Assembly: GCA_009996515.1 (NCBI GenBank)
Contig: JAACZV010000002.1
Location: forward strand, 122,118 to 186,117
Length of the DNA: 64,000 nucleotides
From: Comamonadaceae bacterium
GTDB taxonomy: Bacteria > Pseudomonadota > Gammaproteobacteria > Burkholderiales > Burkholderiaceae_C
Direction of reading: 5' to 3'
The stretch's first letter is position 1. Each line of letters starts with the position of its first letter. Below the pieces are notes generated by a model. It was given only the letters and a program-made list of their open reading frames with translations, was not told the origin of the DNA and searched no databases. Shown one piece after another: positions 9,816 through 41,571 of the stretch. The position numbers and the translations under genes are program-made.

Positions 9816-9827
9816 TTGTCCGTACAA
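9816..9827. promoter_or_regulatory. Operator site 1 (TTGTCCGTACAA)
   Basis: Exact match to the cluster operator TTGTMCGKACAA, 66 bp upstream of the MFS start on the minus strand. On that strand TAGAAT (5 of 6 matches to the -10 consensus) lies three bases upstream of the palindrome, resembling the arrangement seen at 15698 and 34624. Confidence 0.75.
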
Positions 9828-9923
9828 TTAATTCTATGGAACGCGCCCGGGCCTGCGTCTAGGGCAATCCCGGGCTGACGGCGCCGCGCCGCCGTGCACA
9901 AGGCGCCGGCGACGCGCCCGTCC

Positions 9924-11075
9924 TCAGCGCGAACCGAGCAGGCGGGCGTTGTCGGCGCCCAGCGCCGCGCAGCCCCGACCCGGCAGCCGCTGGCCGTCCA
10001 GCTTGATGGGGTTGGCCAGCACCCGGAAGTCCGGGGCGACCGCGTGCGGCAGCGGCTGCAGCATGCCCACGCGTGCGGCGTAGGCATTGTCCAATGCCTG
10101 TGCCAGCGTCAGCACCGGGGCGATGGGCAGCTTGCCGGCCAGTGCCGCCATCCAGTCCGCGCTGCTGCGCTTGGCGAACTCGGCGTCCAGCAGCGCGATC
10201 AGCTCGGCCTTGTGGGCGCGGCGCTGCGCGGCATCGGCGAAGCGCGGCTCGCGCAGCGCCGGCACCGCCAGCTCGGCCAGCAGCGCCTGCCAGAACTTGT
10301 CCGTCATGCACATGACGAACACATGGCCGTCGGCCGTGCCGAAGATCTGGCAGGGCACGGTGGCCGGATGGGCCGAGCGCGGCTGGCGGCCCGTCACATG
10401 GCCGCCGTTCAGGTACCAGGTGGCGGGGTAGGTGAGCTGGAACAGCGCCGTGTCGAACAGGCTGACGTCGACGTCGCGACCCCGGCCCGTCTTCATCGCG
10501 CCAACCAGCGCGGCCAGCAGGCCGGTGGCCAGCGTCACGCCGGTCATGTAGTCCACCATGGACAGGCCCATGCGCGTGGGCGGGCCGTCGGGCTCGCCGG
10601 TCAGGTCCATGAAGCCGGCCTCGGCCTGCATCAGGTAGTCGTAGCCGGGCCAGGCGGCGCGCTCGTTGTCGCGCCCATAGGCCGACAGATGGGCGCAGAC
10701 GATGGACGGCTTGACCGCCTTCAGCGCCTCGTGCGTGAGGCCCAGCTTGGCCGGCTGGTCGCCGCGCAGGTTGTTCAGCACCGCATCGGCGCCGGCCACC
10801 AGGCGCTCGAAGTCGGCGCGGCCCGGCGGGCTCTTCAGGTCCAGCACCACGCTGGCCTTGTTGCGGTTGAAGGTCTGGAAGAACTGGCTGTCGTGCTCGC
10901 CGAGGAAGTGCGGGCCGGTGGCGCGCGACACGTCGCCGCCGCCCGGGCTCTCGATCTTGATGACCTCGGCGCCCAGGTCGGCCAGGTGCATGGATGCGAA
11001 CGGGCCGGCGCCGTACTGCTCCACCGCGAGGATGCGCACGCCCGCCAGCGGCAGGTCTTGGGGCTGGAGGCTCAT
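9924..11075 (-). CDS. CaiB/BaiF (class III) CoA-transferase
   Basis: 383 aa, formyl-CoA-transferase family, moving CoA between a donor acyl-CoA and a free acid. Family signatures are LAVEQYGAGPFASMHLADLG at the N-terminus, NRNKASVVLDLK, and GYDYLMQAEAGFM near residue 130. MGLSMVDYMTG near residue 160 holds the aspartate that forms the acyl-anhydride intermediate in this family. The start ATG overlaps the stop of the acyl-CoA dehydrogenase (ATGA, 11072-11075), so the two are translationally coupled. It is the last gene of the seven-gene leftward operon beginning at 15664 and probably activates an acid substrate of that operon. Confidence 0.92.
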   Translation of the reverse strand: MSLQPQDLPLAGVRILAVEQYGAGPFASMHLADLGAEVIKIESPGGGDVSRATGPHFLGEHDSQFFQTFNRNKASVVLDLKSPPGRADFERLVAGADAVLNNLRGDQPAKLGLTHEALKAVKPSIVCAHLSAYGRDNERAAWPGYDYLMQAEAGFMDLTGEPDGPPTRMGLSMVDYMTGVTLATGLLAALVGAMKTGRGRDVDVSLFDTALFQLTYPATWYLNGGHVTGRQPRSAHPATVPCQIFGTADGHVFVMCMTDKFWQALLAELAVPALREPRFADAAQRRAHKAELIALLDAEFAKRSSADWMAALAGKLPIAPVLTLAQALDNAYAARVGMLQPLPHAVAPDFRVLANPIKLDGQRLPGRGCAALGADNARLLGSR

Positions 11076-12238
11076 ATCGGATGGCGCGCGATCAGCTGCT
11101 TGGCGATGATGGTGCGCAGCACCTCGTTGGTGCCCTCGCCGATGCACATCAGCATGGCGTCGCGGTAGTAGCGCTCGATCTCGTACTCGGTCGAGTAGCT
11201 GTAGCCGCCGAAGATGCGCATGGCCTCGTTGGCGCAGAACACGCCGGCCTCGGAGCCGGCGAACTTGGCCATGGCGGCCTCCAGGTCGCAGCGCTCGCCA
11301 CGGTCGAACTTGCCGGCCGCCTGCTCGATCAGCAGCCTGGCCGCCTCCACCTGCGTGGCCATCTCCGCCAGCTTGAGCTGGATGGCCTGGTGCTCGGCGA
11401 TGGGCTTGCCGAAGCTCTGGCGCTCCTGCGCGTAGCGCAGCGCCAGCTCCAGCGCGCCGACGGCGATGCCGCAGCCGCGCGCGGCCACGTTGATGCGGCC
11501 CAGCTCCAGCCCGCCGGCCACCTGCGCGAAGCCCTTGCCCTCGACGCCACCGATCAGGCGGTCGGCGCTGACGCGGTAGTTGTCGAACACCAGCTCGCAG
11601 GTGTCGATGGCCTTGTAGCCCAGCTTCTTCATCTTGTTGGCGACGACGAAGCCCTCGGTCTTCTCCGCGATCAGCAGGCTCATGCCCTTGTGGCGCGGGT
11701 TGGCGGCCGGATCGGTCTTGACCAGCAGCAGGATGCCGTGGCCGTTCAGGCTGTTGGTGATCCAGGTCTTGGCGCCGTTGACGACGTAATGGTCGCCGTC
11801 CCGAGTCGCCACGGTGCGGATGGCCTGCAGGTCGGTGCCCGCGTTGGGTTCGGTCAGGCCGATGCCGCCACGGAACTCGCCGGTCGCCATGCGCGGCAGG
11901 AACTCGGCCTTCTGCGCCTCGGTGCCGAAGCGCTCGATGGCCGAGGCCATGATGAGGTGGGAGTTGAAGATGCCCGAGGGCGCCATCCAGGCCGATGCCA
12001 CCTTCGTGACGATCTTGGCGTAGGTGCGGGCCGACAGGCCCAGGCCACCCCACTCCTGGCCGATGGTGGCGCCGAACAGGCCCAGCTCCTTCATCTGCTC
12101 GACGAGTTCGTGCGGGTACTCGTCGGCCTGGTCGAACTTGCGCGCGATGGGGCGGACTTCCTTCTCGACCCAGTGCTCGATGCTGTCGAGGATGGCGCGC
12201 TCGTCCTCCTCGTTCCAGCTCTGCTGTGCGTCGCTCAT
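11072..12238 (-). CDS. Acyl-CoA dehydrogenase (about 390 aa type)
   Basis: 388-aa flavoprotein with the classic four-part acyl-CoA dehydrogenase fold: IGLTEPNAGTD near residue 124, KTWITNS near residue 158, and the C-terminal catalytic motif CIGEGTNEV with E368 as the base. ARRLxGG-type signatures are replaced by AMRIFGGYSYS. It introduces a double bond into an acyl-CoA for the adjacent MaoC hydratase. The stop overlaps the CoA-transferase start and its own ATG shares one base with the stop of the MaoC gene (TGATG). Glutaryl-CoA- or isobutyryl-type substrates are possible; not resolved. Confidence 0.92.
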   Translation of the reverse strand: MSDAQQSWNEEDERAILDSIEHWVEKEVRPIARKFDQADEYPHELVEQMKELGLFGATIGQEWGGLGLSARTYAKIVTKVASAWMAPSGIFNSHLIMASAIERFGTEAQKAEFLPRMATGEFRGGIGLTEPNAGTDLQAIRTVATRDGDHYVVNGAKTWITNSLNGHGILLLVKTDPAANPRHKGMSLLIAEKTEGFVVANKMKKLGYKAIDTCELVFDNYRVSADRLIGGVEGKGFAQVAGGLELGRINVAARGCGIAVGALELALRYAQERQSFGKPIAEHQAIQLKLAEMATQVEAARLLIEQAAGKFDRGERCDLEAAMAKFAGSEAGVFCANEAMRIFGGYSYSTEYEIERYYRDAMLMCIGEGTNEVLRTIIAKQLIARHPI

Positions 12239-12756
12239 CAGTAGCCCACCTTGTCTTCCACGCTGTGGCCCTGGCGGGCGATCAGCATCGTGCGGGTGAA
12301 GTGGCAGACGACCTTGCCGTGCTGGTTGAAGCCGGTGGTCTTGACGGTGACGATGCCGGCGCCGGGGCGGCTGGCGGACTCGCGCTTCTCCAGCACCTCG
12401 GACTCCGCGGTCAGCGTGTCGCCGGCGAACAGCGGGTGGGTCATCTTGATGTCGCCCCAGCCCAGGTTGGCGATGGCCTTCTGCGACACGTCGGTCACGC
12501 TCATGCCCACCATCAGCGCGACGGTGAACGGCGAGCAGACGATGCACTTGCCGAACTCCGAGGCCTTGGCGTACTCGGCGTCGAAGTGCATGGGGTGGGT
12601 GTTCATCGTCAGCAGCGTGAACCAGGTGTTGTCCGTCTCGGTGATGGTGCGGCCGGGGCGGTGCTCGTAGATGTCGCCGACCTTGAATTCCTCGTAGTGG
12701 CGGCCAAAGGTTTCGCGGTAGCGGTTGTCGCCGACGGTCTTGATGTTCTGAACCAT
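12238..12756 (-). CDS. MaoC-type enoyl-CoA hydratase (mesaconyl-CoA hydratase-like)
   Basis: 172-aa hotdog hydratase. The active-site segment is TMNTHPMHFDAEYA near residues 50-63; H57 is in the catalytic histidine position and N52 occupies the place of the usual aspartate, as in several mesaconyl-CoA-hydratase-like proteins. The ATG at 12756 is preferred over the ATG at 12801 (which overlaps the upstream stop) because TTTGGAGC lies at good spacing in front of it. Together with the neighbouring CitE-type lyase this suggests hydration of a methylated enoyl-CoA to a beta-hydroxyacyl-CoA that is then cleaved. That pairing is known for mesaconyl-CoA/beta-methylmalyl-CoA; its use here is inferred. 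Confidence 0.85.
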   Translation of the reverse strand: MVQNIKTVGDNRYRETFGRHYEEFKVGDIYEHRPGRTITETDNTWFTLLTMNTHPMHFDAEYAKASEFGKCIVCSPFTVALMVGMSVTDVSQKAIANLGWGDIKMTHPLFAGDTLTAESEVLEKRESASRPGAGIVTVKTTGFNQHGKVVCHFTRTMLIARQGHSVEDKVGY

Positions 12757-12797
12757 GTGTATTGCTCCAAAGATGTTCGTGTTCGTGGGGGAGTCGT

Positions 12798-13619
12798 TCA
12801 TTCGCCGGCGCGGCGCAGCACGCGCTGCGCGGCCAGCATCACGGGGCGGTCGATGAGGCGGCCGTCCAGCAGCGCCGCGGCGGTGCCGTCGGCGCAGGCG
12901 GCGACGACGCGGCGCGCGCGCGCCAGCACGGCCTCGGCAGGCATCAGGCCTGCATGGACGGGCGCCACTTGCGAGGGGTGGATCAGCGCCTTGGCGGTGA
13001 AGCCCAGCGCGGCGACGCGGGCCGTCTCGGCCTGTGCGCCGGCGGCGTCGGCCACGTCCAGCCAGGGCACGTCGATGACGGCCACGCCGGCCTGCGCGGC
13101 GGCCGCCACCAGCGCCTGGCGGGCCGCCAGCAGCGGCTCCCAGGCGAAGTCGCAGCCCAGCTCGGCGGCCAGGTCGGCGCCGCCCAGCATCAGCGCCTGG
13201 ACCTGCGGCACCGAGGCCATGTCGGCCGCATGGGCCAGGCCTTGCGGGCTTTCGATCAGCGCGATCAGCGGCACGCCGGGCAGCAGGCCGGCCAGCAGCT
13301 GCAGCTCATGCGCGCATTCGGCCTTGGCCAGCATGACGAAGGCCGGCGGCGTGCCGGTAGCGTCCAGCAGCGCGACGAGGTCGCGCGGGTTGTCGGGGCT
13401 GGCGAAGCGGTTGATGCGCAGGCCGTAGCGGTGCTTGCCGGGCTGGGCGCCGATGAAGGCCAGTGCGTCGGCACGGGCCTGCGGGCGCGCGGCCGGGGCG
13501 ACGGCGTCCTCCAGGTCGATGCAGACCAGGTCGGCGCCGGCGGCGCCGGCCTTGACGTAGCGCTCGGGCCGGTCGCCCGGCACGAACAGCAGCGAGCGTG
13601 CGCTGGCGAGCGCACTCAT
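12798..13619 (-). CDS. CitE-like HpcH/HpaI-family C-C lyase (malyl-CoA or citramalyl-CoA lyase-like)
   Basis: 273 aa, TIM-barrel aldolase of the citrate-lyase beta family. It starts ARSLLFVPGDRPERYVKA and has DLVCIDLEDAV near residue 30, the glutamate of LIALIESPQGL near residue 120, and LMLGGADLAAELG near residue 142 carrying the Mg-binding aspartate. These enzymes cleave or form beta-hydroxyacyl-CoA thioesters (malyl-, methylmalyl-, citramalyl-CoA) to acetyl- or propionyl-CoA plus a 2-oxoacid. It lies between a MaoC hydratase and a NodB-fold hydrolase with ATGA coupling at 13616-13619. Exact substrate not determined. Confidence 0.88.
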   Translation of the reverse strand: MSALASARSLLFVPGDRPERYVKAGAAGADLVCIDLEDAVAPAARPQARADALAFIGAQPGKHRYGLRINRFASPDNPRDLVALLDATGTPPAFVMLAKAECAHELQLLAGLLPGVPLIALIESPQGLAHAADMASVPQVQALMLGGADLAAELGCDFAWEPLLAARQALVAAAAQAGVAVIDVPWLDVADAAGAQAETARVAALGFTAKALIHPSQVAPVHAGLMPAEAVLARARRVVAACADGTAAALLDGRLIDRPVMLAAQRVLRRAGE

Positions 13620-14497
13620 GCCTGCACCCGGGGCTGCACGGCAGCGGCGAAATGCTCGGCGATGGCGCGGCGCGTCGTCACCCAGACGCCGCTGGCCCGG
13701 CCCACATGCTCGAAGAAGCGCTGCAGCGCCCAGATGCGGCCAGGGCGGCCGATGATGCGCAGGTGCAGGCCCAGCGACATCATGCGCGGCTGCTCGGCGG
13801 TCTGTGCCTCGGCCAGCATCACGTCGAAGGTGTCGCAGGCGTACTTCAGCCACATGTCGGGCGTGTAGGCCGGCGAGACCCACATCTTCATGTCGTTGGA
13901 GTCCAGCGCATAGGGCACGATGACCATGGGCCGGTCCGAGCCGGGCACGGCGTCCCAGAACGGCGTGTCGGCGCTGTAGTCGTCCATGTGGTAGCGGAAG
14001 CCCTCTTCCTGCAGCAGGCGGCGCGTGTGCTCGGTGTGCAGATAGCGCGACAGCCAGCCCACCGGGCGGGTGCCGGTGGTCGCCTCGAGGCTGTCGGCGG
14101 CGCGGCGGATGAAGTCGCGCTCGGCGTCTTCGTTCAGGCGGAACTGGTGGATCCAGCGGTAGCCATGCGAGCAGGCCTCGTCGCCGCGCGCCTGGATGAT
14201 GCGGCCCAGTTCGGGCGCCACTTCCAGCGACTGGGCGGCGGCCGTCCAGGTGGCGCGGATGCCATGGTCGTCCAGCAGCTTGACGATGCGGCGCGCGCCT
14301 TCCTTGATGCCGTACTGGTAGTTCGATTCGTTGCCGTGCATGCGAATCGGCTTCTTCATGACGACGCCCAGCTCGTCCACCGGCTCGGGGAAGGGGTCGC
14401 CCTTGGCGATGCTGTATTCGGAGCCTTCCTCGACGTTGACGACGATGGACAGGGCCAGCTTGGCCCCGTCGGGCCAGTTCCAGTGGGTGGTGCTCAT
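13616..14497 (-). CDS. NodB-fold hydrolase of the PuuE/cyclic-imidase type
   Basis: 293 aa, polysaccharide-deacetylase (NodB) fold but of the branch acting on cyclic ureides and imides. The first motif is VNVEEGSEYS (like the VNYEEGGE of PuuE allantoinase) instead of TFDDG, and the second is ACSHGYRWIHQF near residue 110. Members include PuuE allantoinase and bacterial cyclic-imide hydrolases of nearly identical length. I infer ring opening of a cyclic amide/imide; a true carbohydrate deacetylase is unlikely in an operon with CoA enzymes. It shares ATGA with the CitE-like gene. Two further NodB-fold genes lie in the divergent operon. Confidence 0.8.
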   Translation of the reverse strand: MSTTHWNWPDGAKLALSIVVNVEEGSEYSIAKGDPFPEPVDELGVVMKKPIRMHGNESNYQYGIKEGARRIVKLLDDHGIRATWTAAAQSLEVAPELGRIIQARGDEACSHGYRWIHQFRLNEDAERDFIRRAADSLEATTGTRPVGWLSRYLHTEHTRRLLQEEGFRYHMDDYSADTPFWDAVPGSDRPMVIVPYALDSNDMKMWVSPAYTPDMWLKYACDTFDVMLAEAQTAEQPRMMSLGLHLRIIGRPGRIWALQRFFEHVGRASGVWVTTRRAIAEHFAAAVQPRVQA

Positions 14498-14504
14498 GCG
14501 GTTC

Positions 14505-15347
14505 TCAGTGGTATTCCTCGCCGCCGGAGACGTTCATGGCTTCCCCGGTGATGTACTGCGCCTGCTCCGAGCACAGGAAGGCGCAGGCGTTGGCGATGTC
14601 GGAAGGCAGGCCGGTGCGGCCCAGCGGGATGCGGGCCGCCATGTCGGCCAGGTACTGCTCCACGCTCTTGCCCTGCGCCTGGGCGAAGTGGGCGTTCTGC
14701 CAGGCGCCCAGGCCGGTGGTGACGTGGTTGGGGCAGACGGCGTTGACCGTGATGCCATGCGCCGCCAGCTCGATGGCGGCCACGCGCGTCAGGCCCACCA
14801 GGCCGTGCTTGGACGAGCAGTAGGCCGAGGCCTGCGGGAAGGCGGACTTGGCGGCCTGGCTGGCGATGTTGACGATGCGTCCGCCGCGGCCCTGCGCGAT
14901 GAAGCGCCTGGCCACGACCTGCGTGGCGGCGAACACGCCGCGCAGGTTCACGCCCAGCACCGTGTCCCATTCCGCCAGGCTCATCTCGACGATGGGCTTC
15001 ATCAGATAGCCCACGCCGGCGTTGTTGACGAGGATGTCGACGCCGCCCAGCTGGCGCTCGGTCTCGGTCACCAGGTGCTCGACGGCGTCGCCGTCCAGCA
15101 TGTTGCAGGGCAGGGCGATGGCCTCGCCGCCGGCGGCGCGGATGTCGCCGGCCACGGCGTTCATCTCGTCGCTCGCGCCGATGGCGCCGGCCGGCAGATG
15201 CGGGCCGGCGGCGGCGCCGATGTCGGCGATGACCACGCGTGCGCCCTCGGCAGCCAGGCGCGCGGCGATGGCCGCGCCCAGGCCGCCGCGGCGGCCGGCG
15301 CCCGTGACGATGGCCACCTTGCCTTGCAGATCGGGGTACTGGCTCAT
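14505..15347 (-). CDS. Short-chain dehydrogenase/reductase
   Basis: 280-aa classical SDR: TGAGRRGGLGAAIA near residues 16-29 (NAD(P) binding), DIG, NNAGVGYL near residue 106, catalytic S and Y-x3-K in ASAYCSSKHG near residues 174-182, and a C-terminal QYITGEAMNVSGG. The slightly enlarged cofactor loop (two extra glycines) is unusual but seen in family members. Second gene of the leftward operon, 11 bp behind the REDY-like gene. It probably interconverts a hydroxy and an oxo group of the cluster substrate. Confidence 0.9.
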   Translation of the reverse strand: MSQYPDLQGKVAIVTGAGRRGGLGAAIAARLAAEGARVVIADIGAAAGPHLPAGAIGASDEMNAVAGDIRAAGGEAIALPCNMLDGDAVEHLVTETERQLGGVDILVNNAGVGYLMKPIVEMSLAEWDTVLGVNLRGVFAATQVVARRFIAQGRGGRIVNIASQAAKSAFPQASAYCSSKHGLVGLTRVAAIELAAHGITVNAVCPNHVTTGLGAWQNAHFAQAQGKSVEQYLADMAARIPLGRTGLPSDIANACAFLCSEQAQYITGEAMNVSGGEEYH

Positions 15348-15358
15348 GGCGGCGGCCC

Positions 15359-15664
15359 TCAGAGGGACTCGGTGACGATGAACAGCGGCGCGTCGGCGAA
15401 GGCCTGGAAGCGCTTCGACACCTCTTGCATCGTGGGCGTGGCGATGTCCGCGCCCAGCTGCTGCATGTCGCGCACCCTCAGGATCTCGACGTACTGGTAG
15501 GGCGACTCGCCGCCGCCCAGCACGCCCGAGGCGCGCAACACCTCGAACTTCTCGATGGAGGGCAGGGCGCCCGCCGTCGGCAGGTCGACCTCGCGGGCCC
15601 ATTGCTCGTAGGCCTCGCGCTGCTGGGGATTCTTCAGGTTGAAGAGAACGATCAGGGTGGTCAT
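15359..15664 (-). CDS. REDY-like (HapK-type) small alpha/beta-barrel protein
   Basis: 101 aa, resembling the small dimeric ferredoxin-like-barrel proteins annotated as REDY-like/HapK: MTTLIVLFNLK start, YEQWAREVDLPT near residue 19, SPYQYVEILRVRDM near residue 54, and the ending FADAPLFIVTESL. In this fold two monomers form a hydrophobic ligand pocket; HapK-like proteins occur in prodigiosin-type and other secondary pathways, mostly uncharacterised. First gene of the leftward operon, 27 bp from the transcription start region predicted at the operator 15686-15699. Confidence 0.72.
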   Translation of the reverse strand: MTTLIVLFNLKNPQQREAYEQWAREVDLPTAGALPSIEKFEVLRASGVLGGGESPYQYVEILRVRDMQQLGADIATPTMQEVSKRFQAFADAPLFIVTESL

Positions 15665-15685: not shown

Positions 15686-15699
15686 GTTGTCCGGACAAC
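15686..15699. promoter_or_regulatory. Operator site 2 (perfect 14-bp palindrome)
   Basis: GTTGTCCGGACAAC is a perfect palindrome containing the cluster operator core TTGTCCGGACAA (15687-15698). It overlaps the last bases of the minus-strand -10 box and covers the expected transcription start of the leftward operon, the position expected for a repressor. Confidence 0.85.
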
Positions 15700-15741: not shown

Positions 15742-15770
15742 TTGATCCACTGTCGAATGCAGGTCAAATT
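15742..15770 (+). promoter_or_regulatory. Candidate sigma70 promoter of the rightward methyltransferase operon
   Basis: TTGATC (15742-15747), 17-bp spacer, CAAATT (15765-15770), a weak -10. The operator copy at 15770-15781 begins at its last base, the same layout as at 34624 and at the divergent minus-strand promoter, which supports the call. Confidence 0.5.
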
Positions 15771-15781
15771 TGTACGAACAA
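15770..15781. promoter_or_regulatory. Operator site 3 (TTGTACGAACAA)
   Basis: One mismatch to TTGTMCGKACAA. It lies at the predicted start region of the rightward operon whose first ATG is at 15867. Confidence 0.65.
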
Positions 15782-15798: not shown

Positions 15799-15810
15799 TT
15801 GTCCGGATAT
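15799..15810. promoter_or_regulatory. Operator site 4, degenerate half (TTGTCCGGATAT)
   Basis: Left arm and centre match the operator; the right arm is degenerate. It lies 29 bp downstream of site 3, nearly three helical turns, so cooperative binding is possible. Confidence 0.5.
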
Positions 15811-15866: not shown

Positions 15867-17084
15867 ATGAGCAGATCCGACGCCCCCCAGCCCAGCTGGC
15901 GCCAGCTGGGCCAGCACGCGGTGTTTCCCAAGGCCACGCATGACGAGGTGGCGCGCTTCGACTTCCTGATGCGGCTCAACATGCACCTGTCGCAGGCGGT
16001 GCTGCCCGGCGTCAAGCTGGCGTACGAGTCGCGCGTCAAGCCTGCCTTCGTCGCCGCCCATGGCCGCGAGCCGGCCGACCGCCACGAGGTCAGGCGCGCG
16101 ATGCAGAAGGACCTGCACTACCAGCTGTGGAGTGCGCTGCGCCGCAACACCATGGAGCAGCGCCAGCAGGCCGGCCGCAGCATCGTCTACCGCCAGCTGG
16201 GCGCGCTGCGCGATGCGGCCGACCAGCTCAACGACGGGGCCGCCACGCTGAAGCTGGACCCGGCGATCCGCTCACCGCGCTACGCCACGGCCGTGGACAT
16301 CCACTGCATGCCCGGCAACTACCACACCGAGGAGGTGCCGCGCGACATCGGCGCCGGCGCCAACTACGACGCCGGCCTGTTCATCACGACCGCCGGCGCA
16401 CTGGGCAGCTACTCGGACGGCGGCGGCCAGGCGTTGGTGGACTGGCTGAGGCAGAACCGCCCCGACTTCAAGCCGCGCCGCATCCTGGACATCGGCTGCA
16501 CCATCGGCCACAACGCCGTGCCGCTGGCCCAGGCCTTTCCGGACGCGCAGGTCGTCGCCATCGACACCGCCACGCCGGTGCTGCGCTACGGCCATGCGCG
16601 CGCGCGCTCGCTGGGCGTGCACAACATCGAGTTCCGCCAGGCCAGCGGAGAGGCCGTACCGGCCGGCGACGGCGAGTTCGACCTCGTCACCACGGCCATG
16701 TTCTGGCACGAGACCAGCAGCACCGCGATGCCGCGAATCATGAAGGAGATCCACCGCGTGCTGAAGCCGGGCGGCCTGACGCTGCACCTGGAGCAGCCTC
16801 AGTACGCCGGCATGGCCCCGTTCGAGGCCTTCATGCGCGACTGGGACGCCTACAACAACAACGAGCCGTTCTGGACCGCGATGCACGAGGTGGACCTGGA
16901 CGCGCTGGTGGTCAACAGCGGCTTCCCCAAGGGCGCCTACTTTGAAACCACGATGCAGGCCAAGGTCGACCGCCGCCTGTTCCCCGCGCCCACCGGCACC
17001 GAGGCCGGTTCCCAGGAGGACTACGGCCGCACGCCGCGCTGGACCGCCTTCGGCGCACAGAAGCCTCAGGAGGCCCGCGCATGA
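15867..17084 (+). CDS. SAM-dependent class I methyltransferase with an N-terminal extension
   Basis: 405 aa. The C-terminal 220 residues are a Rossmann methyltransferase: ILDIGCTIGHNAVPLA near residue 208 (motif I), VVAIDTATPVLRYGHARA near residue 228, GEFDLVTTAMFWHE, and KEIHRVLKPGG near residue 295. The N-terminal 190 residues are mainly helical and not assigned. The ATG at 15867 is preceded by CGAGGACGG; an upstream in-frame ATG at 15711 is rejected because it would put the operators inside the coding region. First gene of the rightward operon, ending in an ATGA overlap with the next gene. Acceptor unknown. Confidence 0.85.
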   Translation: MSRSDAPQPSWRQLGQHAVFPKATHDEVARFDFLMRLNMHLSQAVLPGVKLAYESRVKPAFVAAHGREPADRHEVRRAMQKDLHYQLWSALRRNTMEQRQQAGRSIVYRQLGALRDAADQLNDGAATLKLDPAIRSPRYATAVDIHCMPGNYHTEEVPRDIGAGANYDAGLFITTAGALGSYSDGGGQALVDWLRQNRPDFKPRRILDIGCTIGHNAVPLAQAFPDAQVVAIDTATPVLRYGHARARSLGVHNIEFRQASGEAVPAGDGEFDLVTTAMFWHETSSTAMPRIMKEIHRVLKPGGLTLHLEQPQYAGMAPFEAFMRDWDAYNNNEPFWTAMHEVDLDALVVNSGFPKGAYFETTMQAKVDRRLFPAPTGTEAGSQEDYGRTPRWTAFGAQKPQEARA

Positions 17085-17476: not shown

Positions 17477-17503
17477 TCACACGGAGCAGAGAGGGATACG
17501 ACC

Positions 17504-20986: not shown

Positions 20987-20992
20987 CGCACC

Positions 20993-23619: not shown

Positions 23620-23620
23620 G

Positions 23621-24241: not shown

Positions 24242-24296
24242 AGTCGCTGGGGCCCCTCGCCCGGCTTTGCGGCGTTGAACGCGCGCAAATCTGGTC

Positions 24297-24388: not shown

Positions 24389-24420
24389 AAAGACAAGCAA
24401 CTGCCGCCTGGAGATTTGCG

Positions 24421-27414: not shown

Positions 27415-27428
27415 GTTGTACGGACAAC
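27415..27428. promoter_or_regulatory. Operator site 7 (GTTGTACGGACAAC)
   Basis: Exact consensus core TTGTACGGACAA (27416-27427) with palindromic flanking G and C. It lies downstream of the predicted receptor promoter, followed by a leader of about 120 nt before the ATG at 27549. Confidence 0.8.
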
Positions 27429-30905: not shown

Positions 30906-30917
30906 TTGTACGGACAA
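30906..30917. promoter_or_regulatory. Operator site 8 (TTGTACGGACAA)
   Basis: Exact consensus copy in the 68-bp divergent region between the VOC gene and the enoyl-CoA hydratase. Its first six bases TTGTAC serve as the likely -35 box of the rightward promoter. Confidence 0.8.
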
Positions 30918-31746: not shown

Positions 31747-31765
31747 CTTCACGGACAGGACTTCC

Positions 31766-34600: not shown

Positions 34601-34629
34601 TGCGTGAGTAGAGATTCGACTTATATAAT
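34600..34629 (+). promoter_or_regulatory. Sigma70 promoter of the PrpD-PaaK-amidase operon
   Basis: TATAAT (34624-34629, exact -10) preceded at 18 bp by TTGCGT (34600-34605). Operator site 9 begins at the last base of the -10 box and covers the start site near 34636, a repressor-type arrangement. Confidence 0.75.
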
Positions 34630-34640
34630 TGTCCGTACAA
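34629..34640. promoter_or_regulatory. Operator site 9 (TTGTCCGTACAA)
   Basis: Exact consensus in the 71-bp divergent region between the acetyl-CoA hydrolase (and thus the GntR gene) and the first PrpD gene. Confidence 0.82.
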
Positions 34641-34671: not shown

Positions 34672-36030
34672 ATGTCAAGCTCCCCGTCCCAGGCCGAGCC
34701 GCTGCTGATGCGGCTTGCCGAACTGGCGCACCAGGCCGGCGCCGAGGCTGCCTGGCAGCCGCGCGCCGCACTCCATCTGCTCGACTGGATGGGCTGCGCC
34801 GCATCCGGCGTGCACAGCGCCCAGGGGCAGGCCTTCGGTCGCTGGCTGCAGCAGCAGGGCGAGGGCGGGCGCCCCACGCTGGCCGGGCGGCGCAGCGATG
34901 CGGCGGCCGCAGCGGCCTATCACGGCGCGCTGGGCAGCGTGCTGGAGATGGACGACATCCACCGCAGCTCCATCCTGCATCCCGGGCCCGTCGTCATCCC
35001 GGCGGTGCTGGCGGCGGCCTCGCCGTCGACCCCCGGGGCGCGGCTGCTGGCGGGCATGCTGGCCGGTTACGAGGCGGTGATCCGCGTGGGCCGCGCGCTG
35101 GGCCCCTCGCATTACGGCTTCTGGCATTCGACGGCCACGGCCGGCTGCTTCGGCGCCGCGGCCGGCGCCGCTGTCGTGCTGGGGCTGGACGTGCCGACGA
35201 CGGCCCACGCGATGGCGCTGGCCGGCACGCGCGGCGGCGGGCTGTGGCAGGTGCGGCACGAGAGCAGCCTGGGCAAGAGCTGGCACATGGCCGGTGCGGC
35301 CCGCGATGGCGTGGCCGCGGCGCAGCTGGCGGCCAGCGGGCTGACCGGGCCGCTGGCCATCCTGGAGGGGCCGTCCGGCTGGTTCGCGGCCACCGCGCCG
35401 CAGGCCGATGCCGAGCTCGTGTGCGAAGCGCGCGGGCGTCCGTGGCTGGAAGACGTCAGCTTCAAGCCCTGGCCGGCCTGCCGCCATGCCCACCCGGCGA
35501 TGGATGCGCTGCGCGAAAGCCTGCGCGCCACGGCGCTGCATGCCGACGACGTGGCGGCCGTGCATGTGGACACCTACGATGATGCGCTGCGCTTCTGCGA
35601 CCGCCCGCTGCCGCGCGACGAGGCGCAGGCGCGCTTCTCGATCCAGCATGCGCTGGCCGCCTGGCTGCTGTGGGGCGAGCCGCGCTTCGAGCATTACGCG
35701 GCGGCGGCGATCGCCGATCCGGCGCTGGCGGCGCTGCGCGCCCGTGTCACGCTGGGCCGCGGCGCGGCGCAGCAGGCGCGCTACCCGGCGCATTACGGCG
35801 CGGCCGTGCGCGTCGAATGCCACGACGGCCGCGTGCTGGCCGCCGAGTTGCAGGACTGCTGGGGCGACCCGGCCCGCCCCATGCCCGAGGCCGCCGTGCG
35901 CGACAAGGCCGCGCGGCTGATGGCCCATGCCGGCTGGGTGCCGGCACGGACAGACGCGGCCCTCGCCGCCATCGAGGCATTGCCGCAGGCCGCCGACCTG
36001 GTGGCATTGGAAAGGACGCTGCAGCCATGA
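34672..36030 (+). CDS. MmgE/PrpD family protein (first of a tandem pair)
   Basis: 452 aa, 2-methylcitrate-dehydratase/immune-responsive-gene fold. It shows LHLLDWMGCAASG near residue 32, LEMDDIHRSSILHPGPVVIPA near residue 87 (the D-D-H-HPG active-site region), and FKPWPACRHAHPAMDAL near residue 264, equivalent to the K-x-YPxC-x4-H helix of PrpD. Known activities in the family include 2-methylcitrate dehydratase and cis-aconitate decarboxylase. First gene of a five-gene rightward operon. ATGA overlap with the second PrpD gene at 36027 suggests a heteromeric enzyme. Confidence 0.9.
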   Translation: MSSSPSQAEPLLMRLAELAHQAGAEAAWQPRAALHLLDWMGCAASGVHSAQGQAFGRWLQQQGEGGRPTLAGRRSDAAAAAAYHGALGSVLEMDDIHRSSILHPGPVVIPAVLAAASPSTPGARLLAGMLAGYEAVIRVGRALGPSHYGFWHSTATAGCFGAAAGAAVVLGLDVPTTAHAMALAGTRGGGLWQVRHESSLGKSWHMAGAARDGVAAAQLAASGLTGPLAILEGPSGWFAATAPQADAELVCEARGRPWLEDVSFKPWPACRHAHPAMDALRESLRATALHADDVAAVHVDTYDDALRFCDRPLPRDEAQARFSIQHALAAWLLWGEPRFEHYAAAAIADPALAALRARVTLGRGAAQQARYPAHYGAAVRVECHDGRVLAAELQDCWGDPARPMPEAAVRDKAARLMAHAGWVPARTDAALAAIEALPQAADLVALERTLQP

Positions 36031-37418
36031 CGCTGATGGACCGCCTGCTCGACCATGCCCAGGCGTCGAGCTTTGATCGCCTGCCGCCTGCCGCCGTGCA
36101 GGCCGCGCTGACCTTCATCACCGACAGCGTGGGCGTGGGCCTGGCCGGCAGCCGGCATGCGCGCGTGGCCCAGGTGCGCGCGGCAGCGCAGGGCTGGGGG
36201 CGCGGCGACGAGGCCCACGACTGGGTCAGCGGCGAGGCCTGGCCCGCGCCCACGGCGGCCATGCTCAACGCCTACCAGATTCACAACCAGGAGTTCGACT
36301 GCGTGCACGAGCGCGCCGTCGTGCATCCGCTGGCCACCATCCTGCCGGCCTTGCTGGCCCAGGCCGAACGCCAGGCGCGACGCGGCGCCCCGGTGAGCGG
36401 GCGCGACCTGATCGCCGCGCTGGCGCTGGCGGTGGATGCGGCCGCCACGCTGGGCTGTGCGCATGCCTCGCCCATGCGCTTCTTCCGGCCGGCCATGTGC
36501 GGCGCGCTGGGTGCGACGCTGGGCCTGGCCAAGCTGGCCGGCTGCAGCCGTGCGCAGATGGCCGACGCGCTGGGCATCGCCTACAGCCAGCTGGCCGGCA
36601 CCATGCAGGCCCACAGCGAGGGCTCGCCCATGCTGGCGCTGCAGGTGGGCCTGGCGTCGCGCGCCGCGGTCTGCGCGCTGGACCTCGCGCTGGCCGGCTT
36701 CAGCGGCCCGCACGATGTGCTGGAAGGGCCGTTCGGCTACTTCGAACTGTTCGATGCGCCGCTGGCGCCGCGCCGCGCGCAGGTGCAGGCCTGGTTCGAC
36801 GCGTTGGGCCGCGACTGGCGCATTGCCGAGCTCAGCCACAAGCCTTTTCCCACGGGCCGGGCGGCGCACGGTGCGCTGGACGGCGTCATCACGCTGCAGC
36901 GCGAGCACGGCTTCACAGCCGCCGACGTGGCCGGCGTGCAGCTGGCCGCGCCGCCGCTGGTGCTGCGGCTGGTGGGCCGGCCTGCCAAGGTGGGCATGGA
37001 CGTCAACTACGCCCGCCTGTGCCTGGGCTATCTGATCGCGACCTGGCTGCTGCAGGGCCGGCTGGGCCTGGCCGACTTCGACCGCGCCGCGCTGGACGAT
37101 CCCGAGCGCCTGGCGCTGGCCGGGCGCGTCAGCGTGGTGCCCAACGACTGCGCCGATCCCAATGCCCTGGCGCCCCAGCGCGTGGCGGTGCAGCTGCGCG
37201 ACGGCCGCCAGCTTGCCATCGACCTGCCTGCCGTGCTGGGCCATCCGCTGCGCCCGCTGTCGCCGCTGGCGCAGCGCGCCAAGTTCAACGCCTGCTGCGC
37301 CCATGCGGGCCTGGACGCCGAGGCCGCCCAGGCGCTGCACCAGGCCTGCCGCAGCCTGGCCGACTGTTCCGACGCCGCGACCCTCGTGCGGCGCATGCAT
37401 TCCCCGACTTCCCACTGA
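36027..37418 (+). CDS. MmgE/PrpD family protein (second of a tandem pair)
   Basis: 463 aa. The active-site segment NQEFDCVHERAVVHPLATILPA near residue 88 keeps D and H residues, and ELSHKPFPTGRAAHGALDGV near residue 270 replaces the usual KxYPxC-type motif with KPFPTG-A-H, the cysteine being absent. It is divergent from its tandem neighbour, so not a recent duplication. It is probably a dehydratase or decarboxylase subunit for a branched tricarboxylic or dicarboxylic intermediate. Confidence 0.9.
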   Translation: MTLMDRLLDHAQASSFDRLPPAAVQAALTFITDSVGVGLAGSRHARVAQVRAAAQGWGRGDEAHDWVSGEAWPAPTAAMLNAYQIHNQEFDCVHERAVVHPLATILPALLAQAERQARRGAPVSGRDLIAALALAVDAAATLGCAHASPMRFFRPAMCGALGATLGLAKLAGCSRAQMADALGIAYSQLAGTMQAHSEGSPMLALQVGLASRAAVCALDLALAGFSGPHDVLEGPFGYFELFDAPLAPRRAQVQAWFDALGRDWRIAELSHKPFPTGRAAHGALDGVITLQREHGFTAADVAGVQLAAPPLVLRLVGRPAKVGMDVNYARLCLGYLIATWLLQGRLGLADFDRAALDDPERLALAGRVSVVPNDCADPNALAPQRVAVQLRDGRQLAIDLPAVLGHPLRPLSPLAQRAKFNACCAHAGLDAEAAQALHQACRSLADCSDAATLVRRMHSPTSH

Positions 37419-37431
37419 ATCCGCGAATCCC

Positions 37432-38823
37432 ATGAGCCATCCGACTTACTACGAGTCCTTCGACGTCCGCGAGATCCTGGCGGACTACCCGCTGGGCGAT
37501 GCCTTCGACCCGCTTGCCAGGATCAGCCGCGACGAGCTGCGCGCGCTGCAGAACCGGCGCTTCATGAAGCTGGTGGCGCGCGCCTGGCAGATCCCGTTCT
37601 ATCAGCGGCTGTGGGGCGCCAAGGGCATCACGCCGGCCGACATCCGGAGCCTGGACGACATCGTCAAGCTGCCCAGCTTCGGCAAGCACGAGATCATGGA
37701 AAGCGTGGCGCTGCAGCCGCCGCTGGGCGACTTCCATGGTGCCGACGTGCCCGTCGACGGCCGGCACATCCCCATGATCCTGCACACCACCAGCGGCACC
37801 ACGGGCCGGCCGCAGCCGCTGCTGTTCAGCCCCAAGAGCCGCGAGATCCAGAGCCTGCTGCTGGCCCGCATCTACCGCATGCAAGGCCTGGCGCCGCGCG
37901 AGGTGGTGCACTCGGTCTACGGCCACGGCATGATCAACGGCGGCCACTATGTTCGCGAGGCGGTGCTGCACTACACCAACGCGCTGCTGATCACGCCGGG
38001 CACCGGCGTGGAGACGCCGTCGGTGCGCCAGGTCGAGCTGATGCGCGACTTCGGCGTCAACGTCGTCGTGGGCTTCGCGGACTACATCAAGCGCCTGGCC
38101 GACGTGGCCCGCCAGCAGGGCATAGAGCCGGGCCGTGACATCCCGGTCAAGCGCATCTGCGGCCACCTGGGTCGCGAGTCGCGCGAGACGCTGTCGGCCG
38201 CCTGGGGCGGTGCCGAGATGTTCGACTGGTACGGCGTGGGCGACACCGGCGCCGTGGCCGGTGAGGGCCCGGACCATGACGGCCTGTACCTGATGGAGGA
38301 CGCGCAGTACGTGGAGGTGGCGGATGTCGACACCGGGGTGCCGGTGGCCGACGGCGAGAAGGGCGACATGATCGTCACCTGCCTGTACAAGGACGACATC
38401 TACCCCATCATCCGCTTCAACACGCACGACGTGACGCAGGTGCTGACCACGCCGTCCAAGCTGGGCTGGACCTTCAAGCGCATTGCCGGCTTCCTGGGCC
38501 GCAGCGACAACATGGTCAAGATCCGCGGCATCAACGTCTTCCCGCAGGCCATGGGCCCGCTGTTCGAGGAGCGCGCCGACTTCGCCGGCGAGTTCCTGTG
38601 CACCGCGGTGCGCGACGCCACCGGCCGCGACGACCTCATCGTCTCCATCGAGACGCGAGGCCCTTGCGACGAGGTTGCCGCCCAGCCCTACAAGGACTTG
38701 CTCAAGCGCGCGCTGGGCGTGGAGATGCAGGTGCAGCTCGTCGAGCCGCGCGCGCTGGCCGCGCTGACCGGCATCGAGACGCGCCAGAAGCCCATCCGCC
38801 TGATCGACAAGCGCTTCGCCTGA
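37432..38823 (+). CDS. Phenylacetate-CoA ligase-like (PaaK family) adenylate-forming enzyme
   Basis: 463 aa, ANL-superfamily ligase of the PaaK branch. The P-loop is HTTSGTTGRPQPL near residue 117, the substrate/AMP region FDWYGVGDTGAVAGEG near residue 264, IRFNTHDVTQVL near residue 324 and LGRSDNMVKIRGINVFP near residue 357 (hinge and C-domain). It should adenylate an aryl or other carboxylate and form the CoA thioester. It follows two PrpD genes by 13 bp and precedes an amidase by 3 bp. Substrate not assignable. Confidence 0.9.
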   Translation: MSHPTYYESFDVREILADYPLGDAFDPLARISRDELRALQNRRFMKLVARAWQIPFYQRLWGAKGITPADIRSLDDIVKLPSFGKHEIMESVALQPPLGDFHGADVPVDGRHIPMILHTTSGTTGRPQPLLFSPKSREIQSLLLARIYRMQGLAPREVVHSVYGHGMINGGHYVREAVLHYTNALLITPGTGVETPSVRQVELMRDFGVNVVVGFADYIKRLADVARQQGIEPGRDIPVKRICGHLGRESRETLSAAWGGAEMFDWYGVGDTGAVAGEGPDHDGLYLMEDAQYVEVADVDTGVPVADGEKGDMIVTCLYKDDIYPIIRFNTHDVTQVLTTPSKLGWTFKRIAGFLGRSDNMVKIRGINVFPQAMGPLFEERADFAGEFLCTAVRDATGRDDLIVSIETRGPCDEVAAQPYKDLLKRALGVEMQVQLVEPRALAALTGIETRQKPIRLIDKRFA

Positions 38824-38826
38824 GCC

Positions 38827-40164
38827 ATGCCGAGTACCGATCTCCACCTCGGCGACCTGACCACCCAGAGCCAGGCGCTGGCGGCCGGGCGCGTCAGCAG
38901 CGTCGAGCTCACGCGGGCGCAGCTGGATGCCATCGCGGCCCGCCCGGCGCTCAACGCCTACCTGCACCTCGATGCCAAGGGCGCGCTGCGCGCCGCGGCC
39001 GCCAGCGATGCGCGCCGCGCGGCCGGCCTGGCGCTGGGGGCGCTGGACGGCCTGGCGCTGGCCGTCAAGGACAACATCGACGTGGCCGGCATGCCCACCA
39101 CGGCCGGCATGGCGACGCGGCGCGGCCGCGTCGCCGCGCAGGACGCCTTTGCCGTCGCGCGGCTGCGCGAGGCCGGCATGGTGGTGCTGGGCAAGCTCAA
39201 CATGCACGAGGCCGCGCTGGGCGCCACCAACGACAACCCGCACTACGGTCGCTGCGAGAACCCGCAGCGTGCCGGCTACACGCCGGGCGGCTCCAGCGGC
39301 GGCTCGGCCTGTGCCGTGGCCGCCGGTCTGTGCGCGCTGGCGCTGGGCAGCGACACCATGGGCTCGGTGCGCATCCCGGCGGCCTACTGCGGCGTGGTGG
39401 GCCTGAAGGCCAGCTACGGCCGCATTTCCACCGGCGGTAGCGTGGCCTGCAGCTACGCGCTGGACCACATCGGGCCGCTGACCCGTTCACGCCGCGACCT
39501 GGCGCTGGTCATGCCGGTGCTGGCGGCGTTCGATGCCGGCTGCGCCGACGCGCGCGACCTGGCCTCGCGCCCGGCGCTGGAGGCGCCACACTGGGTGGCG
39601 GCCGCGGACGTCGAGGCGCTGGGCGTCAGCCCCGCCGTCGCGGCGGCCTACCGCGGCGCGCTGCAGGCGCTGCGCGCACGCGGCGACGCGGTCTGCGAGA
39701 TCGCGCTGGCGGGCTACGACTTCGGCCGCGCCCGCCGCGCCGGGCTGCTGGTCGTCGAGGCCGACCTGCTGGTCGAGCATGCCGAGGACTGGCGCGCCTG
39801 CCCCGACCAGTTCTCCTCCGAGCTGACGCGTCTGCTGCGCTATGCCGACCGCCAGCCCGCCGCCGCCTACGCGGCCGCGATGCGAACCGTGGCCGCGGCC
39901 CACGTCGAGGTGGCGCGCTGGTTCGCGCATGGCGACGTGATGCTGCTGCCCACCACGCCGCAGCAGGCCTTCGCGTTCGGCGCGCCGGTGCCGGCCAACC
40001 AGGCCGACCTCACCAGCATCGCCAACATGGCCGGCGTGCCGGCGCTGTCGGTGCCGCTGCCGGTCGCCGCGGGCGAGCTGCCCGTGGGTCTGCAGCTGAT
40101 CGCGCCCGTGGGCGCCGAGGCGACGCTGCTGGCGGCCCGCCTGGACGGAGTCTGCGCGGCATGA
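38827..40164 (+). CDS. Amidase-signature hydrolase
   Basis: 445 aa amidase-signature enzyme with the Ser-cisSer-Lys triad: K81 in LAVKDNIDVAGMPTTAG, S156/S157 in GGSSGGSACAVAAG, and nucleophile S180 in GSDTMGSVRIPAAYCG (M replaces the usual G of DTGGS). It hydrolyses a carboxamide or similar. It shares ATGA with the CoA-transferase gene (40161-40164). Placed between a CoA ligase and a CoA-transferase it may release an acid from an amide intermediate, consistent with other amide-hydrolysing genes in the cluster. Confidence 0.9.
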   Translation: MPSTDLHLGDLTTQSQALAAGRVSSVELTRAQLDAIAARPALNAYLHLDAKGALRAAAASDARRAAGLALGALDGLALAVKDNIDVAGMPTTAGMATRRGRVAAQDAFAVARLREAGMVVLGKLNMHEAALGATNDNPHYGRCENPQRAGYTPGGSSGGSACAVAAGLCALALGSDTMGSVRIPAAYCGVVGLKASYGRISTGGSVACSYALDHIGPLTRSRRDLALVMPVLAAFDAGCADARDLASRPALEAPHWVAAADVEALGVSPAVAAAYRGALQALRARGDAVCEIALAGYDFGRARRAGLLVVEADLLVEHAEDWRACPDQFSSELTRLLRYADRQPAAAYAAAMRTVAAAHVEVARWFAHGDVMLLPTTPQQAFAFGAPVPANQADLTSIANMAGVPALSVPLPVAAGELPVGLQLIAPVGAEATLLAARLDGVCAA

Positions 40165-41321
40165 AGCTCGAAGGCATCAAGGTGCTGGACCTGTCCATGT
40201 TCCTGCCCGGCCCGCACCTGACGATGATGATGGCCGACCATGGCGCCGAGGTCGTCAAGATCGAGCCGCCGCAGGGCGAGCCGGTGCGCGAGGTGGGGCT
40301 GCGCCAGAACGGCCACAGCGTCTGGTTCCGCAACACCCACCGCAACAAGCGCTGCATCACGCTGAACCTGAAGACGGCCGAGGCGCGCGAGGTCTTCATG
40401 GCGCTGGCACGTGAGGCCGACGTCATCGTCGAGGCCTTCCGCCCCGGCGTCGTCGAGCGCCTGGGCATAGGCTACGCGGCGGTGAAGGCCGTCAATCCGC
40501 GCATCGTCTACTGCTCGATCTCGGCCTTCGGCCAGACCGGCCCGCTGGCGCACAAGCCGGCGCACGACCTGTCCGTGCAGGCCGAGGCGGGCCTGGTGTC
40601 GGTCAACCTCGGGCCGGACGACCAGCCGGCCATGCCGGGCGTGCCCTCGGCCGACCTGGCGGCGTCGCTGATGGCCTTGTCGGGCATCCTGATGGCGCTG
40701 CTGCGCCGCCAGCAGACGGGGCAGGGCGACTACCTGGACATCGCGATGTACGACGCGCTGCTGGCCTGGACGCCCAACGTCATGGGCCCGCCGTTCGCCG
40801 AGGACCGCGCGGCCGTCGTCAAGGACGAGCGCTCCTGGGGCGGCTCGTCGTTCTACGGCATCTACGCGACGGCCGACGGCCGCCACCTCACGCTGGGCGG
40901 CGGCGAGCACAAGTTCGTCGAGACGCTGCTGCACGCGCTGCAGCGGCCCGACCTGATCGCGGTGGCGCTGCAGCCGCCGGGGCCGGCCCACGAGCCGGTG
41001 CGCGCCTTCCTGCGCGAGGCCTTTGCGCAACGCTCCCTCGCCGACTGGTGCGAGTTCCTCGCGCCGCTGGACCTGGCCTGGGCGCCGGTGCGCGACCTGC
41101 ACGAGGCCATCCACAGCGAACACGCCGCGGCGCGCGGCATGCGGGTGGAGCAGCCCGACGGCCAGCCGCACCTGGGCCTGCCGATCAAGTTCGCCGCCGA
41201 GCCCGGGCGGCTGGACGGCCGGCTGGACGAGCGCGGCGGCTCCACCGACGCCGTGCTGGCCAAGGCCGGCTATGCGCCGGAGGCCATCGCCGCGCTGCGC
41301 GAGCGCGGTGCCGTCGGCTGA
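40161..41321 (+). CDS. CaiB/BaiF (class III) CoA-transferase
   Basis: 386 aa: KVLDLSMFLPGPHLTMMMAD start, RNKRCITLNLKTAEARE near residue 63, HDLSVQAEAGLVSV near residue 135, and MPGVPSADLAASLM near residue 156 with the conserved aspartate. Third CaiB-type transferase of the cluster and last gene of the PrpD operon; a good terminator follows 21 bp downstream. Donor and acceptor unknown. Confidence 0.92.
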   Translation: MKLEGIKVLDLSMFLPGPHLTMMMADHGAEVVKIEPPQGEPVREVGLRQNGHSVWFRNTHRNKRCITLNLKTAEAREVFMALAREADVIVEAFRPGVVERLGIGYAAVKAVNPRIVYCSISAFGQTGPLAHKPAHDLSVQAEAGLVSVNLGPDDQPAMPGVPSADLAASLMALSGILMALLRRQQTGQGDYLDIAMYDALLAWTPNVMGPPFAEDRAAVVKDERSWGGSSFYGIYATADGRHLTLGGGEHKFVETLLHALQRPDLIAVALQPPGPAHEPVRAFLREAFAQRSLADWCEFLAPLDLAWAPVRDLHEAIHSEHAAARGMRVEQPDGQPHLGLPIKFAAEPGRLDGRLDERGGSTDAVLAKAGYAPEAIAALRERGAVG

Positions 41322-41342
41322 GCCAGCCGCCCGCCGCCCCGC

Positions 41343-41370
41343 ATGCCGCCCCTGGGCGGCATTTTTCTTT
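41343..41370 (+). terminator. Rho-independent terminator of the PrpD operon
   Basis: ATGCCGCC (41343-41350), CCTG loop, GGCGGCAT (41355-41362), followed by TTTTCTTT. Closes the unit ending at 41321. Confidence 0.9.
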
Positions 41371-41396
41371 CCGACGCGCGATCCGCGCGTCCGCCG

Positions 41397-41420
41397 CGTT
41401 TCATGAACGCTATTGAAACG
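41397..41420. promoter_or_regulatory. Inverted repeat, candidate enhancer (UAS) for the sigma54 promoter
   Basis: CGTTTCA (41397-41403) and TGAAACG (41414-41420) form a 7-bp inverted repeat with 10-bp spacing; a further GTGAAAC half-site follows at 41435. It lies about 175 bp upstream of the -24/-12 promoter, the range used by sigma54 activators. The remaining part of the 41322-41642 gap contains only the terminator, operator 10 and the promoter. Confidence 0.5.
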
Positions 41421-41559
41421 TCGCCGGGTGTCGCGTGAAACATGCCCTCGCCATGGCGTGTGGCGGCGCGTCGGCCGATTCGGCGCCAGCGCGCCTATGG
41501 CTGCCCAAAAAGGTGGCAGATCGGTGCCGCCGTGCGGTCCGGCTTCGGTGCTTACCCTG

Positions 41560-41571
41560 ATGTCCGGACAA
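41560..41571. promoter_or_regulatory. Operator site 10 (ATGTCCGGACAA)
   Basis: One mismatch in the outer position; the core TGTCCGGACA is a perfect palindrome. It ends 13 bp before the -24 element of the sigma54 promoter. Confidence 0.72.

Follow-up and report, generated by a model that had tools for sequence, protein, structure and literature searches.

How are the 40 genes called between positions 8446 and 52030 of this locus controlled, and does a single repeated palindrome serve as their switch? The question arises from a 64,000-nucleotide stretch of the genome of a Comamonadaceae bacterium (assembly GCA_009996515.1, contig JAACZV010000002.1, positions 122,118 to 186,117; hereafter the window), in which an initial annotation had listed ten copies of a palindrome and proposed that they define a previously unrecognised regulon of GntR type. 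We confirm this palindromic operator set, and comparison of sequences across related genomes indicates that the ten sites are very probably the operators of a HutC-type GntR repressor encoded within the cluster itself, at 32548–33285.

We searched for the operator pattern TTGTMCGKACAA in the window, across the whole genome (G000; 4,576,037 bases), and in relatives. All ten sites were recovered at the positions originally listed (Table 1), including the six exact copies (shuffle mean 0.00); the other four carry one mismatch (15770 and 41560) or two (15799 and 27347), rather than the one to three first reported. Genome-wide, the pattern occurs eight times exactly, against one occurrence of a reversed-pattern control and 0.17 expected from base composition, and ten times with at most one mismatch, against four in the control, so that enrichment at the cluster is strong; beyond the eight exact copies, only 15770 and 41560 come within one mismatch of the pattern. 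The claim that no full intergenic copy lies outside the cluster held in the window, where an exact scan returned none elsewhere; the genome has exact copies at one further place, a pair on contig C6. Genes were predicted with a purpose-written codon-usage caller and grouped into ten units from their strand and close spacing rather than from transcripts. On this map all ten sites are fully intergenic, in a region (8446–52030) of which just 4.2% is intergenic, and, as had been proposed, every unit has at least one site upstream of it or in a shared divergent gap.

Table 1 Operator sites and gene units of the cluster, in window coordinates.
Feature	Position	Strand	Sequence	Context or content
Operator, exact	9816..9827		TTGTCCGTACAA	65 bp 5' of MFS transporter gene
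Operator, exact	15687..15698		TTGTCCGGACAA	22 bp 5' of HapK/EthD-like start; coincides with predicted start of TTGACA-16-TATAGT promoter match
Operator, 1 mismatch	15770..15781		TTGTACGAACAA	Middle of divergent gap
Weak operator, 2 mismatches	15799..15810		TTGTCCGGATAT	Inside best promoter match of methyltransferase unit; on its own not above chance
Operator, exact	27283..27294		TTGTCCGGACAA	96 bp 5' of PrpR-like gene
Weak operator, 2 mismatches	27347..27358		TTGTCCGGTCAT	On its own not above chance
Operator, exact	27416..27427		TTGTACGGACAA	121 bp 5' of TonB receptor start
Operator, exact	30906..30917		TTGTACGGACAA	Gap between 30895(-) and 30964(+); left half is the -35 match (TTGTAC-17-TATCCT) of the + unit
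Operator, exact	34629..34640		TTGTCCGTACAA	Gap between CoA-transferase/GntR unit (-) and PrpD unit (+); first base is the last base of TATAAT
Operator, 1 mismatch	41560..41571		ATGTCCGGACAA	71 bp 5' of 41643-52030 unit
MFS transporter unit	8446..9750	-		
Seven-gene unit	9924..15664	-		HapK/EthD-like, SDR, PuuE-like hydrolase, HpcH/RipC-like lyase, MaoC/RipB-like hydratase, acyl-CoA dehydrogenase, CaiB CoA-transferase
Ten-gene unit	15867..25260	+		Methyltransferase, 131-residue protein, isochorismatase-like amidohydrolase, two PuuE-like hydrolases, HMGL-like lyase, CaiB CoA-transferase, LeuC/LeuD-like hydratase, cupin
PrpR-like sigma-54 activator	25273..27186	-		
TonB-dependent receptor	27549..29966	+		
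273-residue protein	30074..30895	-		No family match; weak match to a solved Photorhabdus protein (E 1.6e-4)
Enoyl-CoA hydratase (ECH) unit	30964..32494	+		ECH and a protein with a sub-threshold DUF3108 match
GntR/UTRA regulator	32548..33285	-		HutC subfamily
CoA-transferase	33299..34600	-		Acetyl-CoA hydrolase family; shares a unit with the GntR gene, upstream of it
PrpD unit	34672..41321	+		Two MmgE/PrpD proteins, PaaK-like CoA ligase, amidase, CaiB CoA-transferase
Ten-gene unit	41643..52030	+		226-residue protein, nitrilase-like, flavin adenine dinucleotide (FAD)-linked oxidase, amine oxidase, cytochrome c, glyoxalase-like, DUF1838, FAD-dependent dehydrogenase, 73-residue protein, aldehyde dehydrogenase (ALDH)

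The attribution of the sites to a GntR-type protein fits both their operator-like behavior and the presence of a GntR/UTRA gene in the cluster. The encoded protein combines an N-terminal GntR winged helix-turn-helix (Pfam PF00392, 71 bits, cut-off 27, E 6.4e-20) with a C-terminal UTRA domain (PF07702, 59 bits, cut-off 23.8, E 5.7e-16), and its nearest solved structures are DasR and YvoA. Alignment with orthologues from two relatives, G037 and G299 (63% and 62% identity), gives SRHTIREALRIL as the recognition helix. The palindrome precedes every definable unit of the cluster, the GntR gene's own unit included, plus one TonB receptor elsewhere in the genome. A GntR dimer would bind each palindrome, covering the -35, -10, or start site of transcription, and so block RNA polymerase; the substrate or an acid intermediate of the pathway would then bind the UTRA domain and release the dimer from its operators, switching on uptake and the whole pathway together, while the operator before the regulator's own unit would provide autoregulation. 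Repression, inducer, and substrate are all inferred here. The genome encodes five UTRA proteins, and the 3.4-kb loci of the other four contained no WTGTNCGNACAW site.

The exact pair outside the cluster lies at C6:98278 and 98297, with starts 19 bp apart, and begins 110 bp and ends 80 bp 5' of a likely GTG start (L011 position 10389, after AGGAG) of a TonB-dependent receptor (L011:10279-12578, including the sites). This protein matches the Pfam TonB-dependent receptor family, its best NCBIfam model being a siderophore-receptor subfamily under the cut-off, and is distinct from the receptor of the cluster (38% identity over 136 residues, 23% over 393). An exact pair before this unlinked gene suggests that the regulon extends past the cluster. 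Two weaker WTGTNCGNACAW matches in the genome, C1:365626 and C30:5617, are isolated. The first could not be placed because the gene caller returned no gene there, and the second (TTGTCCGAACAT, L138:4118) stops 18 bp short of a small gene that belongs to a long same-strand run of such genes, perhaps a mobile element.

Conservation of the operator was examined in related clusters. An exact-peptide seed scan of 84,980 species genomes yielded 48 loci, of which two were close (62–63%), in a Burkholderiales metagenome-assembled genome (MAG; CAIQBO010000035.1, G299) and a Betaproteobacteria MAG (VGHB01000010.1). By tblastn, counterparts of 31 of the 40 cluster genes were found in 60 kb of G037 and of 25 in 60 kb of G299, at 46–86% identity and in rearranged order. 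Each of these clusters has seven listed sites with at most one mismatch, all seven intergenic. In both relatives sites stand before the HapK, methyltransferase, TonB, FAD-oxidase, and DUF1838 units; G037 also has them in the ECH/273-residue and PrpD/CoA-transferase-GntR gaps, and G299 in the gap between the genes for the 226-residue and DUF3108-like proteins. The operator heads the regulator's own unit in all three clusters, with one mismatch in G037 and, in G299, ahead of the DUF1838 gene with which that unit begins. The FAD-oxidase unit of G037 runs on into a TRAP transporter and that of G299 into genes alike in size and order, one of which, when scanned, was DctP. Among 20 proteins scanned against Pfam (from 12 unassigned genes of G037 and 8 of G299) no other regulator was found. 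A second GntR/UTRA-like gene (28%) occurs elsewhere in G037 (L091:8255-10094, contig C21), its unit divergent from another across two one-mismatch sites, with possible cross-talk between paralogues.

These comparisons bear on whether all ten sites are operators, or only the exact ones, with 15799, 27347, and perhaps 15770 and 41560 being chance matches. At up to three mismatches the window holds 18 matches where chance gives a mean of 18.58, a count that speaks against the weak sites, and another two-mismatch copy lies at 33635, inside the CoA-transferase gene; the two-mismatch sites are therefore credible through position alone. On the other side, 15770 and 41560 are the sole one-mismatch matches in the genome, all four imperfect sites fall before units in the approximately 4% of the DNA that is intergenic, and ATGTCCGGACAA, the form found at 41560, recurs in the relatives. 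We regard a restriction to the exact sites as rather unlikely, and retain all ten as candidate operators of the GntR repressor.

The placement of the operators relative to promoters suggests how the repressor might act. Twenty-six sites (12 of G000, 7 of G037, and 7 of G299) were pooled into the consensus AAGTTGTMCGKACAACTT, the symmetry of which is imposed, since the profile adds the reverse complement of each site. Conservation of its core is partly a product of selection, as 24 of the 26 were either initially annotated sites with at most one mismatch or were picked by that same threshold; the flanking A/T and G/C preferences (52–77%) are not products of it. When promoters are scored by a home-made, looser scheme, 20 of 28 units have an operator that overlaps their best promoter match, with approximately 10.9 expected by a rough estimate, and in 12 of the 28 the operator center is no more than 3 bp from the predicted start, against a null of 1.66 when the 12-bp core is kept (maximum 6 in 100 runs) and of 5.74 when six flanking bases are kept as well (maximum 10), in a count that takes divergent gaps twice and scores the C6 TonB unit from a start now judged unlikely. 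Such positions are suited to blocking. They stand against the reading that GntR, once bound to these sites, activates transcription or has a dual role and is not simply a repressor, which would find its support in the eight operators lying off the best promoter match, including those of the 41643 unit and of the G037 and G299 methyltransferase units, and in sites 15770 and 27347, 45 and 55 bp 5' of predicted starts. We consider activation improbable, and a simple GntR repressor remains the preferred reading.

Association of the palindrome with this type of regulator extends beyond the three clusters, to other genera and another family, where the operator is again kept before orthologous units. 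Among 399 genomes of the order, seven others match the three-row GntR alignment at E ≤ 1e-45, and six of the seven loci have CG-centered sites (no null was computed). At four loci from one genus (L151, L152, L154, and L155) the site adjoins the GntR start, between GntR-methyltransferase and PrpD-PrpD-PaaK-amidase; at two from one other genus (L149 and L150) it lies about 2.2 kb away, before a PuuE-like gene. In G572 (L155), which belongs to another family and whose GntR protein is 36% identical, TTGTCCGGACAA stands before a DUF1838-ECH-nitrilase-ALDH unit and the FAD-oxidase/273-residue unit that it faces, and before a HapK-SDR-PuuE-HpcH-MaoC unit, and the GntR/PrpD gap likewise has a site, which suggests that the regulon is retained at this level of GntR identity. 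Only sites on the cluster contig were used there, because the loose pattern gave 14 matches in that genome against 8 for its control. Another contig of G572 carries an exact operator pair 16 bp apart (G572:C1:48705 and 48721), resembling the C6 pair of G000.

A similar association is seen within the family, in which 29 of 299 genomes have any exact site, G000 the most (8), followed by G037, G192, and G266 with four each. Of the four family genomes with four or more exact sites, three gave a GntR match at E ≤ 1e-30, compared with 18 of 299 overall (P 0.0007, a value that includes G000 itself and a cut-off chosen afterwards); three same-genus genomes sampled had neither at least four exact sites nor such a match. 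In G192, a weaker GntR relative (29.9%) lies about 1.5 kb from one of the sites. Furthermore, 8 of 16 family GntR paralogues (31–38%) have WTGTNCGNACAW within 300 bp upstream, for a null mean of 0.007 from resampled sequence, and L024, one of the eight without, has an exact site 99 bp downstream. Five paralogue loci (L023, L026, L027, L028, and L029) show ATGTTCGAACAT-like palindromes in pairs, 24 to 27 bp apart, upstream of their own GntR/UTRA genes, mostly with T, not A or C, beside the CG center; these pairs may form a sister operator class. A diverged catabolic cluster in G266 (L133 and L134, contig C406; RipC-, PrpD-, HMGL-, and CaiB-like proteins, amidases, and a GntR protein at 35%) also contains exact or one-mismatch operator sites.

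That paralogous GntR genes have the same type of palindrome upstream of themselves also bears on the owner of the sites. A different regulator might bind them, for example the PrpR-like sigma-54 activator or an unlinked factor, with the GntR gene as a passenger: three sites lie in the gap 5' of the PrpR-like gene, and its product scores 515 bits, above the PrpR family cut-off of 499.2. However, neither the G037 nor the G299 cluster, both of which keep the sites, gave a PrpR-like tblastn match, and a -24/-12 pattern is no commoner in the window than chance predicts (2 found, 2.42 expected). On these two grounds PrpR was set aside as the owner, and ownership by any regulator other than GntR appears to carry little probability. 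A structural or repeat element without a regulator, suggested by a short, palindromic, and recurring motif, is highly implausible, given a common part of only about 18 bp, unrelated surroundings, and a place before orthologous genes that is kept despite rearrangement.

The inferred switch is close to known ones. HutC-subfamily regulators (HutC, PhnF, DasR, and NagR/YvoA) likewise combine GntR and UTRA domains with a GT-N4-AC palindrome and have operators both between divergent genes and at the unit encoding the regulator; the present system differs in its CG center, in reaching no NCBIfam equivalog cut-off (HutC 97.2 of 220 bits, PhnF 83.7 of 156.8, PhnR 81.4 of 296.75, TreR 65.9 of 211.95), and in the large catabolic cluster it would control. 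As described in PMC4494728, GT-N4-AC is the usual operator spacing of the subfamily, with the consensus GTMTAKAC, and the 26 pooled sites have this spacing. A CG-centered core is found in the ara box of Bacillus subtilis AraR, At(T/A)tGTaCGTAcaa(A/T)T (PMC4218819), and the recognition helix starts with Ser-Arg-His-Thr in both proteins (Ser62–Thr65 of AraR). Unlike the regulator described here, the effector domain of which is UTRA, AraR has an effector domain of the LacI/GalR type and controls arabinose use. The operator of PobR, TTGTCCGATSATCGGACAR, shares the letters TTGTCCG (PMC8222616), but its arms are seven bases further apart and PobR belongs to another regulator family, IclR, to which none of the cluster genes scanned in the window gave a match.

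With half of the paralogues likewise having CG-centered sites, this center looks like a trait of this GntR branch. The residue at helix position 39 was rejected as its sole determinant: His, Phe, and Tyr all occur beside CG-centered sites, and the His paralogues L016 and L017 lack sites, in a listing without L018 and L024, both of which are included in the upstream count of 16 paralogues. The operator combines HutC spacing with an AraR-like center; the regulon itself appears new, its type of switch already known. The description of the regulon as previously unrecognised can thus be kept for this specific regulon, on which literature searches found no publication, and not for the form of its motif.

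Several observations weigh against the proposed repressor–operator pairing. The TA center of the HutC-subfamily consensus, which is not universal, is absent, CG being found in 98% of pooled positions at sites that were partly chosen by pattern. Some units lack a good match: the best one in the ECH/273-residue gap of G299 has two mismatches and that at its cupin gene three, nothing under five mismatches was found at the HMGL/CaiB unit of G037, and in the window the 179-bp gap before the cupin gene, a possible extra promoter, contains nothing nearer than five. Matches with at most one mismatch number 10 in G037 against 3 in the control, three of them off the cluster and each with one mismatch. 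In G299 there are 13, six of them off the cluster, against 31 in the control; with this total below the control, only the five exact sites of G299, all on one contig, count as enrichment. A strict promoter scan of 26.5–42 kb returned one promoter against 0.7 expected and none at an operator, and the positional result rests on our own looser scoring. Finally, one of the seven order-level loci (L153) has no CG-centered site upstream or in the locus, eight of the 16 family paralogues have no upstream WTGTNCGNACAW site, and few genera are represented among the paralogues and relatives, a single genus supplying four of the order loci, so that these counts are not independent.

Interest lies mainly in the pathway controlled, the switch itself being of a known kind. 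Family matches outline a catabolic route with C-N hydrolases (three PuuE-like, one isochorismatase-like, one nitrilase-like, and one amidase), CoA-transferases, hydratases (LeuCD, MaoC, and two PrpD), lyases (HMGL and HpcH), and oxidases. The isochorismatase-like protein is similar to N-carbamoylsarcosine amidohydrolase and to entries 3ot4/3uao, which we take to be maleamate amidohydrolase, and one PuuE-like protein is similar to PuuE allantoinase. The clusters of three relatives, which look non-photosynthetic, also include a gene of the CpeT/CpcT family, bilin lyases that attach bilins to phycobiliproteins: in G299 (L132:6527-7567; 66.8 bits, cut-off 21) it follows the TonB receptor gene in an operator-headed unit, in G037 (L089:12401-13240) a homologue (35%) that falls below the Pfam search follows the TonB gene, and in G572 (L164:3023-4000; 98.3 bits, over the cut-off; 41%) it follows LeuD. 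The family exceeded its cut-off in two of 12 genomes searched, a search in which it was not found in G000, and among 14 control genomes only in a cyanobacterium.

With this gene present in the clusters of three relatives, a substrate derived from bilins is plausible. We tentatively suggest, as a possibility short of even odds, that the genes of the regulon form a hitherto undescribed pathway for bilins or other remnants of tetrapyrroles, such as phycobilins or products of heme or chlorophyll; among the matches listed in literature searches, no paper on such a catabolic cluster was found. Under this scheme the TonB receptors would take up the tetrapyrrole and, in the three relatives, the CpeT/CpcT-type protein would handle the bilin, which the oxidases would split into substituted maleimides. 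The three PuuE-like hydrolases could open these rings and the isochorismatase-like enzyme remove the amide, after which LeuCD, MaoC, and PrpD would hydrate the substituted maleates, and CaiB transferases together with HMGL or HpcH lyases would cut these acids, one of which GntR may sense. If correct, this would open bacterial use of photosynthetic pigments to simple testing. With one repressor and one operator named for 40 called genes, the inducer of the repressor would offer a direct handle on the substrate, and the operator both serves to locate regulon members far from the cluster, the unlinked TonB receptor being an example, and reveals a CG-centered branch of the HutC operator type.

Solved-structure searches with the 226-residue protein, the CpeT-like protein, and the product of the gene after the C6 receptor returned nothing useful. 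The 131-residue protein (17081–17476), for which no family match was found, is encoded after the methyltransferase gene in both orthologous clusters as well, and in three more distant loci.

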